This document shows positions 8,694 through 14,336 of a stretch of 64,000 nt of DNA, one piece after another. The translations under genes and the position numbers were made by a program. This DNA comes from Aromatoleum buckelii. GTDB lineage: Bacteria; Pseudomonadota; Gammaproteobacteria; Burkholderiales; Rhodocyclaceae. Under the pieces are notes generated by a model. The model did no database searches, was not told the DNA's origin, and saw only the letters and a program-made list of their open reading frames with translations. Numbering within the stretch: position 1 is the stretch's first letter; each line of letters starts with the position of its first letter. The stretch covers positions 372,001-436,000 of the forward strand of contig NZ_WTVH02000008.1 of NCBI RefSeq assembly GCF_012910785.2, read 5' to 3'.

Positions 8694-9281
8694 TCAGTCG
8701 GGGCGGCCGAGCCGATACACGGCGACGCTGGCGAGAAAGTTGGGTTCTTCCTCGATCAGCGTGCTCTCGTCGAAAGCCAGTCGCTCGCGCACGACGATGC
8801 CGTTCATCGCGCACAGCGCGTCGAAGTCCGCGATCGTGAAGAAGCGCACGTTCGGCGTGTTGAACCACTGGTGCGGCAGGCTTTCCGATACCGGCATGTG
8901 GCCGTTGAGGATGCTCTGGCGGTGGCGCCAGTAGCCGAAGTTCGGAAAGCTGACGACCGCTTCGCGCCCGACGCGCAGCATCTCGGCGAGGATGCCTTGG
9001 GTGTTGTGCATCGCCTGCAGCGACAGGCTCATGATGACGTGGTCGAAGAAACCGTCCTCGAGGCCGGCGAGGCCTTTTTCCATGTCCATCTGGATCACAT
9101 TGATGCCATTGCGGACGCAGGCCAGCAGCTTGTCCGCGTCGTTCTCGACACCGTACCCCTGGACCTGGCGGACTTCGGCGAGATGCCTGAGCAGGCTGCC
9201 GTCGCCGCAGCCCAGATCGAGCACCCGCTCGCCCGGCGAAATCCACTTCGTGATCACTTCGTAGTCGTAGCGGTAGGCCAT
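8694..9281 (-). CDS. metW: Methionine biosynthesis protein MetW
   Basis: A 195-residue class I SAM-methyltransferase-fold protein. MetW accompanies MetX in proteobacteria that make methionine through O-acyl-homoserine and is needed for full MetX activity or product choice. The SAM-binding motif VLDLGCGDGSLLRHL lies near residues 20-35, and the MetW-typical NFGYWRHRQSI and PNVRFFTIADF stretches are present. The ATG at 9281 follows the metX stop by two bases, so translation is coupled; a TTG six bases earlier is less likely. It is expressed from the riboswitch-controlled metX promoter. Confidence 0.93.
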   Translation of the reverse strand: MAYRYDYEVITKWISPGERVLDLGCGDGSLLRHLAEVRQVQGYGVENDADKLLACVRNGINVIQMDMEKGLAGLEDGFFDHVIMSLSLQAMHNTQGILAEMLRVGREAVVSFPNFGYWRHRQSILNGHMPVSESLPHQWFNTPNVRFFTIADFDALCAMNGIVVRERLAFDESTLIEEEPNFLASVAVYRLGRPD

Positions 9282-9283
9282 CG

Positions 9284-10411
9284 TCAAACCTTGATGCGGT
9301 CGAAATAGGCCGCAAGCAGCCCGTGGTAATGCGCGTCGTCGAGCAGGAACGAGTCGTGCCCGGCGTCGCTCTCGATCTCCGCGTAGCTGACGTTGCGGCG
9401 GTTGTGCAGCAGGCTGTAGACGATCTCGCGGCTTCTCGCCGGCGAGAAGCGCCAGTCGGTCGAAAAGGACACGACGAGGAAGTCGGCGCTCGCGCGCGCC
9501 AGCGCCGCCCGCAGCAGGCCGCCGTGCTCGAACGCGGGATCGAAGTAGTCGAGCGCCTTGGTCGTCAGCAGATAGGTATTGGCGTCGAAAAAACCGGCGA
9601 ACTTGTCGCCCTGGTAGCGCAGGTAGGATTCGATCTCGAACTCGACGTCATAGCTATACACCGCCTTGCCGTGGCGCAGCGTACGGCCGAATTTGTCGGC
9701 CATCGCATCGTCGGACAGGTAAGTGATGTGGCCGAGCATGCGCGCGAGCTTCAGCCCGCGGGCCGGGACGACGCCATGCTCGTAGTAGTGCCCGCCGTGG
9801 AAGTCCGGGTCGGTCAGGATCGCCTGGCGCGCGACTTCGTTGAACGCGATGTTCTGCGCCGTGAGCCGCGGCGCCGACGCGACGAGCACCGCGTGCCCGA
9901 TGCGCTCCGGATACTGCAGCGTCCACGACAGCGCCTGCATGCCGCCCAGGCTGCCGCCGACGACCGCGGCGAAACGTTCGATGCCGAGCCGGTCGGCGAG
10001 CCGCGCCTGGGCGCCGACCCAGTCCTCGACAGTGACGAACGGGAAATCCGCGCCCCATGGTTTGCCGCTCGCCGGATTGATCGAGGCGGGGCCGGTCGTG
10101 CCGTGGCAGCCGCCCAGGTTATTGACGCCGATGACGAAGAACTTGCGCGTATCGAGCGGCTTGCCGGGCCCGACGAGGTTGTCCCACCAGCCGATGTTGC
10201 CGGGGTCGTCCGCATAGTGGCCGGCGACATGGTGAGAGCCGGACAGCGCGTGGCATACCAGCACGGCGTTGCTGCGCGCGGCGTTGAGCTCGCCATAGGT
10301 CTCGTACAGGAGTTCGTACTCGGGCAGGGCGTCGCCGCTGCGCAGCGGCAGCGGCTCGGCGAAATGCGCCCGCTGCGGGACGACGGCGCCGACGGATTGG
10401 GGTTGGATCAT
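9284..10411 (-). CDS. metX: Homoserine O-acyltransferase MetX
   Basis: A 375-residue alpha/beta-hydrolase-fold enzyme that acylates homoserine with acetyl-CoA or succinyl-CoA, the first committed step of methionine synthesis. The oxyanion region [12 protein letters not shown], the nucleophile Ser in [12 protein letters not shown], the Asp in STDWRFSP and the His in DAGHDSFLL are all present. The acyl-donor preference is not obvious from the sequence. I use the ATG at 10411; a TTG at 10429 overlaps the terminator T-tract end and is unlikely. The leader carries a SAM-II-like aptamer and an intrinsic terminator, so expression should fall when SAM is abundant. Confidence 0.94.
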
Positions 10412-10427: not shown

Positions 10428-10448
10428 AAAAAAACCCAGCCGGCTGGG
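10428..10448 (-). terminator. Intrinsic terminator in the metX leader
   Basis: On the reverse strand the perfect palindrome CCCAGCCGGCTGGG is followed at once by seven T residues. It lies between the SAM-II-like aptamer and the metX start, where it can only act as an attenuator. The upstream strand CCCAGTCC (reverse strand at 10455-10462) can pair with GGCTGGG and would be a competing antiterminator. Confidence 0.75.
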
Positions 10449-10465
10449 AAACGCGGACTGGGTCG

Positions 10466-10520
10466 CCCTCGCTTTAGCCGGATTTATTGAGCGCCCGCAA
10501 GCTGTGGTTCAAATCGGCGC
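10466..10520 (-). promoter_or_regulatory. SAM-II-like riboswitch controlling metX-metW
   Basis: The reverse-strand leader reproduces the compact SAM-II pseudoknot. Stem P1 is GCGCC (10516-10520) paired with GGCGC (10491-10495). The conserved GATTTG of loop 1 follows directly, and its GATTT can pair with AAATC (10481-10485) to form the pseudoknot. The conserved CTTGC before the 3' strand of P1 and GCTAAA (10473-10478) are in place. The class senses S-adenosylmethionine. The aptamer starts almost at the predicted transcription start and is followed by an intrinsic terminator, so control may be transcriptional here, although most described SAM-II switches act on translation. Confidence 0.82.
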
Positions 10521-10531
10521 GTGGAGGCGAA

Positions 10532-10560
10532 AAATTAGCGTGGCCGTGCGCAATTGTCAA
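10532..10560 (-). promoter_or_regulatory. Sigma-70 promoter of metX-metW
   Basis: On the reverse strand a perfect TTGACA (10555-10560) is followed by a 17-bp spacer and TAATTT (10532-10537, three of six). Transcription would begin near 10525, just five bases ahead of the riboswitch stem. It sits in the 18-bp to 50-bp space downstream of siaD, showing that metX is not simply read through from the sia genes. Confidence 0.6.
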
Positions 10561-10578: not shown

Positions 10579-11385
10579 TCACCGGGCGAACGCGATGCGA
10601 TCCCGCCCCTCGTGCTTGGCGAGGTACAGCGCGTCGTCGACCCGTTTCATCAATTCCGCCAGCTCCTCGCCCGGGCGGCAGCTGCCGACGCCGAGCGAGA
10701 CGGTGATGCGCAGTTGCCGCTCGCCGATGATGAACGGATCGCTCCCGACGCAGGCGCGCAGCCGTTCGGCGTTGTCACCTGCGGTGCAGGGTTCGGTGTC
10801 CGACAGCATCACGAGGAACTCTTCCCCGCCCCAGCGCGCGCACACATCGTATTCGCGCACCGACGCCGCGAGGCGTGCGGCGACGGCCGTCAGCGCGTGG
10901 TCGCCGAACTCGTGTCCCCAGGTGTCGTTGATGTCCTTGAAGTGGTCGATGTCGATGATCATGATGACGAACGAGCGGCCACCCCGCTGGGCACGCAGAT
11001 GCTCCTCGCGCAACCGCTTCAGCGCATGGCGTCGGTTCGGCAGCCCCGTGAGTGCGTCGCGGTGGGACAGCCATTCGAGGCGCTGGTTGAGTTCGCGCAG
11101 CATGCCCTGGTATTGGTCGCTGATGCGCACGATCTTTTCGAGCCTGCGCAGCTGACGGCGGTAATTGACGGCATGGCCGGCACCGCGGTCGCGCTCGGCG
11201 GCCTGGTAGTGGTCGCTGATGCGGGTGATGCGCTCGAGTTGGCAGAGGTGGTCGGAAAAGGCGTCGTAGAGCTCGGCGAGCGGCGCGCGCAACGGATTGT
11301 CCCGGTGTTCGGCATCGCTCAGCAGCGCATCGATGCGTTCGGTCAGCGGGCGCTCCCCGGGCGGCAGGGGAAATCCTGAGTTCAT
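10579..11385 (-). CDS. siaD: Diguanylate cyclase SiaD
   Basis: A 268-residue cytoplasmic diguanylate cyclase making cyclic-di-GMP from two GTP. The N-terminal 100 residues are helical with heptad-like spacing (LAELYDAFSDHLCQLERI and a similar later repeat), as in the stalk of Pseudomonas SiaD that binds SiaC. The C-terminal domain has an active ARWGGEEF and an intact RxxD inhibitory site (REYD) five residues upstream. The ATG at 11385 lies two bases after the siaC stop; a GTG at 11391 is an alternative overlapping start. It is the fourth gene of siaABCD, and the family model is that unphosphorylated SiaC activates this cyclase. Confidence 0.88.
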   Translation of the reverse strand: MNSGFPLPPGERPLTERIDALLSDAEHRDNPLRAPLAELYDAFSDHLCQLERITRISDHYQAAERDRGAGHAVNYRRQLRRLEKIVRISDQYQGMLRELNQRLEWLSHRDALTGLPNRRHALKRLREEHLRAQRGGRSFVIMIIDIDHFKDINDTWGHEFGDHALTAVAARLAASVREYDVCARWGGEEFLVMLSDTEPCTAGDNAERLRACVGSDPFIIGERQLRITVSLGVGSCRPGEELAELMKRVDDALYLAKHEGRDRIAFAR

Positions 11386-11387
11386 TG

Positions 11388-11765
11388 TCACGAACCCGGA
11401 ATGATCTCGAACGGGAACGTGTAGTCTTCCTTGAACTCGGCAGCCAGATCGGCGACGCGCTCGTTGTCACGGTCATAGCGCCAATTCACCGTGACCGCCT
11501 GCCCGCGCTCGTGCGCGTCCTGCAGCGCGTCGAAGATGTCCATCATCGCCCGCACGCTGCTCGTGTTGAGATACATCAGTTTCAGCTCGAGCGTCAGCGG
11601 CTGCAGAACCTGGTCGAGAAAGCCGGCGAGCCAGTCGATGACCGGCTGGAACAGCTCGAAGGAATTTTCCGGATAGGAGTCGCCGCTCATTTCCAGCCGC
11701 CCGGCTGTCCGGTCGGTGCGGATGAGGGGAGTCGATTCGGTGGCAGGAATCTCGAAATCGTTCAC
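11388..11765 (-). CDS. siaC: SiaC, Thr-phosphorylated activator of SiaD (DUF1987)
   Basis: A 125-residue DUF1987 protein. In Pseudomonas aeruginosa SiaC is phosphorylated on Thr68 by SiaB and dephosphorylated by SiaA; only the unphosphorylated form activates SiaD. Here the motif YLNTSS places the threonine at exactly residue 68, and the family signature SGDSYPEN occurs at 27-34. The start is GTG, supported by GAGG eight bases upstream. It begins 13 bp after siaB and is translationally close to siaD. The conserved residue number argues that the same phospho-switch works here. Confidence 0.88.
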   Translation of the reverse strand: MNDFEIPATESTPLIRTDRTAGRLEMSGDSYPENSFELFQPVIDWLAGFLDQVLQPLTLELKLMYLNTSSVRAMMDIFDALQDAHERGQAVTVNWRYDRDNERVADLAAEFKEDYTFPFEIIPGS

Positions 11766-11778
11766 TTCGGACCTCAGT

Positions 11779-12321
11779 TCAAATCACCACGCGCAGGCTG
11801 AAGAAGGCGTGCTGGGGGTCAAGGGTTTTCACGCTGCACGCGAGCGGCTGGCTCGCGCGGCGTGCCAGGTCGATCAGCCCGAGTCCGGCGCCGGTCTTCG
11901 CCTGCGGGTCGCGGGGCTGGCGCATCTGGGTCTTGAACGCGGCTTTCAGCGCGGCCCTGTCGAGGGCGGCGAGTTCGCCGATGCGCGCGACCAGCGCCTC
12001 GCCGTCGTCATGGAGCACGACATTGCCGGCACTGACGACGTAATGCCCCGCCTCGTCGCGCGAAACGATGATCGTCGCTTCGGCTGCGGCGCCGCTCACG
12101 CCGCTCGACGCGGCGTAGTGGCGGATGTTCTGGCTCAGCTCGATATAGGCCGAAAAAACGTCGGTGATCGCCGACGGGGATTCGGACAGCCCCTCCATGT
12201 GCTTGCGCAGGGCCTTGCCGATCTCCTCCATCAGCGTGGCCGAGAACGGCCCGTTGAAGCCCAGCATGATTCCCTGGCGCGAGAACGCTTCGCGCAAGGA
12301 CAACACATCCACCTCTTCCAT
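11779..12321 (-). CDS. siaB: SiaB family protein kinase
   Basis: A 180-residue kinase-like protein with a GHKL/HATPase-type fold, related to anti-sigma-factor kinases. In the sia pathway it phosphorylates SiaC on threonine. The N-box-like ELSQNIRHYA (about 61-70) and the glycine-rich ATP lid GAGLGLIDLARRA (about 144-156) are present. The ATG starts two bases after the siaA stop, and siaC follows closely, so all four genes are one transcript. There is no membrane segment; the membrane input comes from SiaA. Confidence 0.85.
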   Translation of the reverse strand: MEEVDVLSLREAFSRQGIMLGFNGPFSATLMEEIGKALRKHMEGLSESPSAITDVFSAYIELSQNIRHYAASSGVSGAAAEATIIVSRDEAGHYVVSAGNVVLHDDGEALVARIGELAALDRAALKAAFKTQMRQPRDPQAKTGAGLGLIDLARRASQPLACSVKTLDPQHAFFSLRVVI

Positions 12322-12323
12322 CC

Positions 12324-14336
12324 TTACTCCCCGGAAACAGGGCCGGGCGTCGCCGCCCGACCTGGAATACGAAAACCGATCACCGTGATGTCATCGCGCT
12401 GCGCCCAGCTTCCCTGATGGTCGGCCAAGTGTCGCCGCAGCGCTTGTTCCTGGCTCGTCATCGGCTGCGCCGCGGTCTCGCCCAGCGCGACTGCGAAGCG
12501 GCGCGTGCCGAAGCCGTAGCCGCGTTCGCCTCCGGCTTGGTCGAGGAACCCGTCGGTAGTCAGATAATACGTGCAGCCAGAGCCTTCGGCGATGATGACA
12601 TTCTCGTAAATTGCGCGCTGCCGCTCGCCGATGCTGCGCCGGCTGCCGCGAAGCTGCTCGCACTGCGTGCCCTCGCAGCGGTAGAGATCGACGTGCGCGC
12701 CGGCGAAGGTCACGCAGCCGGTCGCGACGTCGACGTGGCACAGGCCCACGTCCATGCTGGTCGCGAGATGGCGGCTCGCCGCATCGCCCGGCAGCAGCGT
12801 ACGCGTCGCGCTGTCCATGCGCGTCAGCAGCGCTGCGGGATCCGCCAGTCCGAGTTCCTGGACGGCCAGGTCGAAGCCGGCATGCGCGATCATCGTCATG
12901 AACGCGCCCGGCACGCCGTGCCCCGCGCAATCGACGATGCCGACGAGGAACTGTCCCGGCGCCTCGCGGAACAGGTAGAAATCTCCGCCGACGGTGTCGC
13001 GCGGCTGCCACAGCACGAAGTGGTCGTCGGGCAACGCGTGCAGCAGCTCGCGGTGTGGCAGCATCGCGTGCTGGATCAGGGCGCCGTAGCGGATGCTGTC
13101 CTGGATCTGCCGGTGCGTTGCCGCAATGCGGTCGCGCGCCTGGGCGAGATCGCGGGTGCGCTCGGTGACGCGGCTTTCGAGTTCGCTGGTGTGGGCGTCG
13201 ATCTGGCGCGCCATGCCGTCGAAGGCGCGCGTCAGCGAGCCGAGCTCGTCGCTGCGGCGCGTGTGCAGGCGCTGGCGATAATCGCCGATGGCGATGCGCT
13301 GCGCGGAGTCGGTCAGCTGCACCAGCGGCCGCAGGATCAGTCGGTCGACGCCCATGCTGACGGCGACCGCGAACAGCAGCAGCAGCGCGATCGCGCCGAG
13401 CGCAAGCGGCCACAGCACGGTTTCGTCGATGACCTGCGCGGCGCCCAGGTCCACGGCGGTGATCACGTACCAGTCGAGCGCCGGCACGTAGGCCCCACCG
13501 AGGACGCGCGGCTGGCCCTGCAGATCGACGCGCAGGGCGCCGCCACTGCCCGGTGCGTCGCGCAGGCCCGCGAGCATGCCGTCGAGCGCTTCGCGATCCG
13601 CCCCGTCCTCGACGAGCCCGTGCAGCGTGCGCCGAGGGGCGGCTTTGGTCAGCGCCGCGTACTCGATCAGGGACTGGTCGGGGTGGGCGAGAATCGCGCC
13701 TTCGCCATTGATGATGAAGTTCGTGACGCCCGAATCGACGGTGCCGACGAAAGTGGCGAGAAAGCGTGTCAGGTCGAGCCCCGAGCCGGCCAGGCCGAGC
13801 ACCCGCCCGCCTTCGGCTTCGCGCACCAGCACATTGAACCAGACTTTCGTGACCTTGAGCTTTTCGTCGACGTTGACGTTCAGCGCATATGGGCGGGCGT
13901 CGCGAACCGTGGCGAAATACCACCCGTCCTTGGGGTCGCCGCGCTGCAGCGTGTAGCTCGGCTTCACCCACGCATCGGGTGCGGTGCCGTCGCTGAAGTA
14001 GTAGTGCCCGCTGTCGTTGGCGATGAGAAACACCGAAGCGTCGGTGAACGCGCGCCGGAACCGTTCGGCATCGATGCCCGCTTGCCCGGAGTTGTCCGTA
14101 CCGCGCAGGAAGCGTTGCACGCTTTCGAGTTCGGCGAGCCGCTGCGACAGGCTCAGCTCGCGCGTGATCAGCGTGACGAGCTTTTGCGCCTGCAGCAGCG
14201 CGTGGTTGCGCGCGAAGCCGGCGCCGAAATGATCGCGGAAGGCGTCGAGGCCGGCCCGTCCGGCCAGCAGCGCGAACAGCCCCAGCAGCGCCAACAGCGC
14301 CGCGAGCCACAGGCCCGATTTCCCCCGCAATCCCAA
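12324..14336 (-). CDS. siaA: Membrane PP2C/SpoIIE-type phosphatase SiaA
   Basis: A 670-residue sensor phosphatase. A transmembrane helix near residues 8-28, a periplasmic sensor region to about 300 (dCache-like), a second helix (about 303-325), a HAMP linker (LTDSAQRIAIGDYRQRLHT) and a C-terminal PP2C/SpoIIE domain with GGDFYLF and VDCAGHGVPGAFM metal-binding motifs are visible. In the sia model it dephosphorylates SiaC and so promotes c-di-GMP synthesis and aggregation. The start is a TTG with GGAGAG about ten bases upstream; no ATG or GTG is available before the preceding stop. It follows the EI gene by 42 bp on the same strand. Confidence 0.88.
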   Translation of the reverse strand: MGLRGKSGLWLAALLALLGLFALLAGRAGLDAFRDHFGAGFARNHALLQAQKLVTLITRELSLSQRLAELESVQRFLRGTDNSGQAGIDAERFRRAFTDASVFLIANDSGHYYFSDGTAPDAWVKPSYTLQRGDPKDGWYFATVRDARPYALNVNVDEKLKVTKVWFNVLVREAEGGRVLGLAGSGLDLTRFLATFVGTVDSGVTNFIINGEGAILAHPDQSLIEYAALTKAAPRRTLHGLVEDGADREALDGMLAGLRDAPGSGGALRVDLQGQPRVLGGAYVPALDWYVITAVDLGAAQVIDETVLWPLALGAIALLLLFAVAVSMGVDRLILRPLVQLTDSAQRIAIGDYRQRLHTRRSDELGSLTRAFDGMARQIDAHTSELESRVTERTRDLAQARDRIAATHRQIQDSIRYGALIQHAMLPHRELLHALPDDHFVLWQPRDTVGGDFYLFREAPGQFLVGIVDCAGHGVPGAFMTMIAHAGFDLAVQELGLADPAALLTRMDSATRTLLPGDAASRHLATSMDVGLCHVDVATGCVTFAGAHVDLYRCEGTQCEQLRGSRRSIGERQRAIYENVIIAEGSGCTYYLTTDGFLDQAGGERGYGFGTRRFAVALGETAAQPMTSQEQALRRHLADHQGSWAQRDDITVIGFRIPGRAATPGPVSGE

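Follow-up and report, generated by a model that had tools for sequence, protein, structure and literature searches.

The leader of the metX and metW genes of Aromatoleum buckelii is very probably a SAM-II riboswitch with an attached terminator that scores below the Rfam threshold, and the sequence makes it highly probable that it works as a transcriptional OFF switch. It was found on the minus strand of the window, the whole 64,000-nucleotide stretch of DNA that was analysed, where it takes up about 150 bases between TTGACA at 10560 and the ATG of metX at 10411. Read in the direction of transcription, it consists of TTGACA-17-TAATTT, the P1 strand GCGCC, GATTTG, CTTGC, the P1' strand GGCGC, AATAAAT, GCTAAAGCG, a terminator hairpin and seven T residues. 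The features are as follows.

10555..10560, minus strand: -35 box TTGACA, from promoter scoring
10532..10537, minus strand: weak -10 box TAATTT (3/6) after a 17-nt spacer, from promoter scoring; absent from a stricter scan
10457..10530, minus strand: predicted SAM-II (SAM_alpha, RF00521) aptamer, model positions 1-79 of 79; 19.3 bits, gathering score 36
10516..10520, minus strand: P1 5' strand GCGCC; covariation, with the five inner pairs standard in 137-139 of 139 leaders
10510..10515, minus strand: L1 GATTTG, by analogy the putative third strand in the triplex that binds SAM (PMC6061858, text available in part, and general background)
10497..10501, minus strand: CTTGC, 5' strand of pseudoknot P2, from the leader alignment
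10491..10495, minus strand: P1 3' strand GGCGC, from the leader alignment and covariation
10473..10478, minus strand: GCTAAA, from the core motif scan
10470..10478, minus strand: GCTAAAGCG, 3' strand of pseudoknot P2, also proposed as antiterminator strand, from the alignment and the duplex and folding tests
10441..10480, minus strand: proposed antiterminator hairpin, CGGCTAAAGCGAGGGC with GTCCGCGTTTCCCAGCCG; -18.2 kcal/mol, p 0.02 (shorter test, p 0.22)
10434..10464, minus strand: intrinsic terminator hairpin, from a hairpin scan and conservation
10428..10434, minus strand: terminator T-run, seven T, from the sequence
9284..10411, minus strand: metX, homoserine O-succinyltransferase type, ATG at 10411; NF047916, 672.6 bits, cut-off 560
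8694..9287, minus strand: metW, sharing 4 bases with the end of metX; TIGR02081, 247.2 bits, cut-off 189.5

The two genes likely share one operon, and the closest named relatives of the MetX protein are from Aromatoleum diolicum (89% identity), Azoarcus and Thauera.

The core pattern GATTTG-CTTGC-GCTAAA occurred once in the window and in none of 100 shuffles, and its single copy across the 4.16-Mb genome is the metX leader, where GAUUUG, CUUGC and GCUAAA are set around P1 as in the SAM-II core. RF00521 aligned to this leader over its full length with a score below the gathering score (E 0.041, for 401 bases searched against 4227 families). Rfam at its gathering threshold gave no match in the whole window, and an RF00521 search of the leader's own genome at E 0.001 gave none either; a 21.8-bit RF00521 match in that genome was rejected as the metX leader, as it lies on another contig at a place where the core pattern is absent. 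At loose E-values RF00521 was unspecific, matching 2 of 14 control genomes at E 0.1 and 10 of 14 at E 1, and such tallies were not used as evidence; above the cut-off it matched none of the 14. It exceeded the cut-off in 8 of 38 genomes of relatives (six of the eight being the metX leader by contig coordinates, and the matches in G252 and G260 sitting elsewhere), in 20 of 229 genomes of the class, and in 26 of 150 genomes drawn from the window's order, where 65 of the 150 matched at E 0.001. Two of the three top RF00521 scores in the class search belong to leaders in which a terminator was not found (L001, 48.1 bits; L003, 42.9 bits); since AGGAG also precedes their start codon, these two may act on translation.

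An independent covariance model was built from 50 aligned leaders with P1 as its only helix; the window, L039-L080 and RF00521 members above 60 bits were left out. In the leader's own genome this model scored the window leader at 68.1 bits (E 8.3e-15; contig C5, 382463-382523, which is 10463-10523 of the window), and the second-best place at 16.0 bits. At E 0.001 it matched 109 of the 150 order genomes and 36 of 200 genomes drawn from the phylum, at least one of the searched genomes (G224, source of L034) having also supplied a training row. Annotation at the Rfam cut-off thus overlooks most of the clade, at 26 order genomes against 109. The preliminary description had let its SAM-II assignment depend on a covariance score above threshold, and RF00521, at 19.3 against 36 bits, falls short of this; because the independent model gives 68.1 bits, that test is judged too strict here, and the reading of the metX leader as a SAM-II-type aptamer joined to an intrinsic terminator is upheld. 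A chance resemblance, with no regulatory RNA at this place, would agree with the sub-threshold Rfam score and is scarcely credible beside the single genome-wide core occurrence at metX, the E-value and breadth of the independent model and the covariation described below.

Twenty loci found by the independent model were run against Rfam. RF00521 exceeded its cut-off in 13 of them, namely L199-L209 (11 loci, 63.7-80.8 bits), L195 (39.2 bits) and L198 (36.2 bits), and stayed below it in the window's own copy (L180), L191-L194, L196 and L197. The loci L199-L209, from other classes of the same phylum and presumably alphaproteobacterial, were recovered even though members above 60 bits had been kept out of the model, and this reciprocal search connects the window leader by homology to high-scoring RF00521 members. 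L191 and L192, also of the same phylum and another class, scored 73.5 and 70.2 bits with the independent model and did not exceed the RF00521 cut-off; they have a window-like core, and the type is therefore not confined to the beta/gamma class. In seven genomes (G342, G384, G298, G295, G312, G381 and G403) two matches to the independent model lay on one strand about 95-170 bases apart, start to start, and these pairs look like tandem aptamers.

The strict core was present in 64 of 81 metX leaders (the window and 80 loci), two more (L062 and L092) carried it with one change, and 15 were without it. A looser core was found in 139 of 173 stretches, representing 127 distinct aptamers; the 34 core-less stretches, among them L025 and L033, which are the same place, were excluded from later counts. 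Many leaders stem from related genomes, so the counts are not counts of independent events, and conservation of the core letters is partly built in because the core served to choose the loci. P1, promoter and terminator had no part in that choice, except that the longest P1 was taken where there were several core candidates. By short protein motifs, the genes after the 139 leaders (101 labelled, 38 unlabelled) resemble metX, metZ/metY, metK and metN. By such motifs alone, the core also stands ahead of metK-like (L007, L016, L124, L167, L194 and L195), metN-like (L021) and metH-like (L189) genes.

Structure was assessed in an alignment of 61 leaders. P1 was paired in 95.6% of cells, with changes on both sides in five of its six pairs, which is the covariation expected of a SAM-II P1. 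The core P2 pairs were formed in 99.2% of cells and are uninformative, as the core P2 hardly varies. P2a showed changes on both sides in all four pairs with 66% of cells paired, for pairs that were picked after the alignment had been seen. For the structure as a whole the covariation score was 0.163, a value that none of 500 shuffles attained (0.099 in shuffles), and slid structures gave 0.054-0.069; further pair types were not unusually numerous, 88 of 500 shuffles having as many, and the fold of the whole window leader showed no excess of stability over shuffles (z 0.00). In the window the core P2 pairs are present and P2a is short, keeping three of four pairs with an A-A mismatch (alignment read by eye). 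Of the full set of SAM-II elements announced in the preliminary description, P1, GATTTG, CTTGC and GCTAAA are in place and the pseudoknot partner follows the canonical form only in part. The SAM-contacting letters of the Sargasso metX structure have counterparts in the window leader.

The short P2a and the low RF00521 score would both suit a variant aptamer of SAM-II fold that binds another metabolite. This is very improbable: the core elements that form the SAM site in SAM-II and SAM-V are present (their role is taken from the available text of Huang and Lilley 2018, PMC6061858, and from general background), and the downstream genes resemble metX, metZ/metY, metK and metN, by motifs, with 101 of 139 labelled. 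According to the same text, an unpaired U of SAM-V binds the adenine and a U:A.U triple lies beside the sulfonium, and SAM-II holds SAM virtually as SAM-V does.

At the expected place upstream of the aptamer, a promoter matching at least 9 of 12 positions was found in 96 of 138 core-bearing leaders, compared with 7 of 138 after letter-shuffling of the upstream sequence (one leader of the 139 had too little upstream sequence). For the window leader, the sigma-70 promoter previously proposed stands as to TTGACA (10560-10555) and the 17-nt spacer; its -10 box TAATTT is weak, and no promoter came out of a stricter scan that required 4/6 or better in both hexamers. Of the 139 core-bearing leaders, 122 had a hairpin with four or more T behind it; five rounds of letter shuffling gave 27, 13, 25, 15 and 26 such leaders. 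In the window the palindrome and seven T residues noticed earlier are such a terminator, with a hairpin at 10464-10434 of -17.5 kcal/mol and the T-run at 10434-10428. Sequence comparison shows homology to SAM-II together with the core, the covariation of P1 and the conserved promoter and terminator.

We propose that transcription would start a few bases upstream of P1. With SAM bound, which we infer to be the ligand, an H-type pseudoknot would keep the strand GCUAAAG within the aptamer, the downstream hairpin CCCAGUCC...GGCUGGG would form, and RNA polymerase would halt at the seven U residues. In the absence of SAM the same strand (CGGCUAAAGCGAGGGC) would pair with the terminator loop and the start of its 3' arm as the RNA emerges, so that the terminator would be delayed or blocked and metX-metW transcribed. 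The direction of control is thus predicted to be repression by SAM.

The candidate antiterminator, a predicted pairing of the terminator with the strand GCUAAAGCG that contacts SAM, is the least certain step for the window; it appears well supported in other leaders and only moderately so in the window's own group. The partners of CGGCUAAAGCG lie in the terminator loop (GUCCGCGUUU). The 122 terminator-bearing leaders were divided into the window group (the window and L039-L074, 34 leaders, closest by MetX identity and by title mostly Rhodocyclales), L075-L118 (28 leaders) and class hits (60 leaders). The duplex energy of GGCTAAAGCG with the terminator gave a mean z of -2.68 in the class hits, -2.21 in L075-L118 and -0.97 in the window group (fraction 0.29). 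The segment ending in CTTGC gave z -2.70 in L075-L118 (fraction 0.54 of 28) and z -0.71 in the window group (fraction 0.24 of 34), the latter fraction nearly equalling that of GGCTAAAGCG. By eye, this segment in L075-L118 is complementary where the terminator has AAGCTG, a possible second switching pairing. Other strands tried as antiterminators, namely CTTGCGGGCGC, P1/L1 and the AAAT segment, showed no excess (mean z -0.18 to +0.72) and were rejected.

A shorter duplex test against permuted cores reached p 0.05 in 41 of 60 class hits, 17 of 28 leaders of L075-L118 and 9 of 34 of the window group, with p 0.22 for the window itself. In a second test the transcript was folded as it would be shortly before completion of the terminator, with native or permuted cores; p was 0.05 or less in 45 of 60 class hits, 15 of 28 of L075-L118 and 16 of 34 of the window group (76 of 122 in total). 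The native transcript of the window folded at -18.2 kcal/mol and paired 10 of its 11 core letters; the mean with permuted cores was -12.1 kcal/mol (p 0.02). The possible antiterminator of the preliminary description is backed by the nearly complete transcript and left without support by the shorter test. Among the 11 loci with canonical RF00521 scores, the antiterminator test reached p 0.05 in 1 of 10, the remaining locus being without a terminator.

When the segment was finished and its core unblocked, 39 of 60 class hits, 24 of 28 of L075-L118 and 27 of 34 of the window group (window included) retained half or more of their terminator pairs; with the core blocked the numbers were 59, 28 and 34. 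As an unblocked core still lets the terminator form, the switch would be a kinetic one, dependent on the order of folding, at least in the window. Stepwise folding of the window segment had the antiterminator as best state until the last steps, after which the terminator prevailed. That the free minimum-energy state in the window is the terminator would also follow if the terminator were largely constitutive and the aptamer acted on it weakly, or through RNA stability or translation, and in the Sinorhizobium meliloti metA leader the terminator is predicted to be unaffected by its SAM-II aptamer (available text of PMC9373788). We regard this as unlikely, as pairing with the terminator is stronger for the native core than for permuted ones (p 0.05) in 76 of 122 nearly complete transcripts.

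Equally unlikely is an arrangement in which aptamer and terminator are right and the alternative structure differs, GCCGAUUU of P1/L1 pairing with AAAUCCGGC before and within GCUAAA. This pairing, which would disrupt the aptamer and not the terminator, is part of the most stable predicted fold of the complete window leader. It is close to the second conformation drawn for the metXZ element, where region 5 pairs with regions 1 and 2 (available text of PMC4239095), as compared by description and not by letters. Against it, 46 of 139 leaders preserve the complete 3' partner AAATNCG ahead of GCTAAA, and 15 of 139 have CATACCA or CATTCCA in its place.

The preliminary description had held that SAM-II is usually thought to act on translation and that a betaproteobacterial example with a terminator would be unusual, and neither view agrees with the literature in the parts available. 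Most SAM-II riboswitches are described as transcriptional (Huang and Lilley 2018, PMC6061858), many SAM-II leaders carry putative intrinsic terminators, with Bordetella bronchiseptica among the sequences displayed (Corbino et al. 2005, PMC1273637), and Barrick and Breaker (2007, PMC2258182) name SAM-II as the one aptamer that in alpha- and betaproteobacteria goes mostly with regulatory terminators. Leyn et al. (2014, PMC4239095, available text) further describe, from 35 genomes, a metXZ element of betaproteobacterial metXW and metZ leaders (metXW in 30 of the genomes) that has conserved regions, a pseudoknot, a terminator and a conjectured antiterminator. As switches with terminators were already on record for these bacteria, the window leader serves as a good example without being out of the ordinary.

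The window leader is a conserved betaproteobacterial leader of metXW followed by a hairpin and a U-tract and, because gene, taxon and described layout agree, is very likely the metXZ element, as compared by description and not by figures. Leyn et al. differ in setting metXZ as a new element beside SAM_alpha, which they report solely in Rhizobiales and Rhodobacterales, and in their conjecture of an effect of the GC-rich regions 3 and 4 on the terminator; no link from metXZ to SAM-II was seen in the available text of that paper. Neither such a link nor a GCUAAAG antiterminator was found in print among the matches listed, including the best 20 of 602 and the best 20 of 64, in a search that covered mainly the main text of freely accessible papers. 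The comparison suggests that the SAM-II and metXZ literatures describe one RNA.

Compared with known systems, the leader shares with SAM-II (RF00521) the core sequences, P1, the core P2 pairs, the place ahead of a methionine gene and the downstream terminator; it differs in its score below the cut-off, its short P2a and the antiterminator-like behaviour of GCUAAAGCG in many window-type leaders as against 1 of 10 canonical loci. The S. meliloti metZ SAM-II leader is alike in its predicted transcription termination, a Northern blot there showing a small RNA of about the terminated length, and differs in being alphaproteobacterial (available text of PMC9373788). SAM-V, considered here because of the short P2a, has a SAM-binding core nearly identical to that of SAM-II and a short P2a as well; its marks are a Shine-Dalgarno sequence in P2a and translational control, whereas the window has an intrinsic terminator (available text of PMC6061858).

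Tentatively, and with slightly less than an even chance of being right, the beta/gamma leaders including the metXZ element of Leyn et al. may form a distinct, largely unrecognised SAM-II clade whose ligand-binding strand GCUAAAGCG itself serves as antiterminator and takes the place of the long P2a of alphaproteobacteria. If so, capture of SAM by the GCUAAAGCG strand would directly take the antiterminator strand away, and the proposal offers a switching pairing that can be tested. The additions made here are modest: evidence that such leaders are SAM-II, the link to metXZ and the antiterminator candidate.

Directly upstream of the metX leader and on the same strand, a siaABCD-type cluster occupies 10579-14336 of the window, its products each scoring above their own NCBIfam cut-off (SiaA 964.9, SiaB 282.8, SiaC 199.9 and SiaD 334.5 bits).
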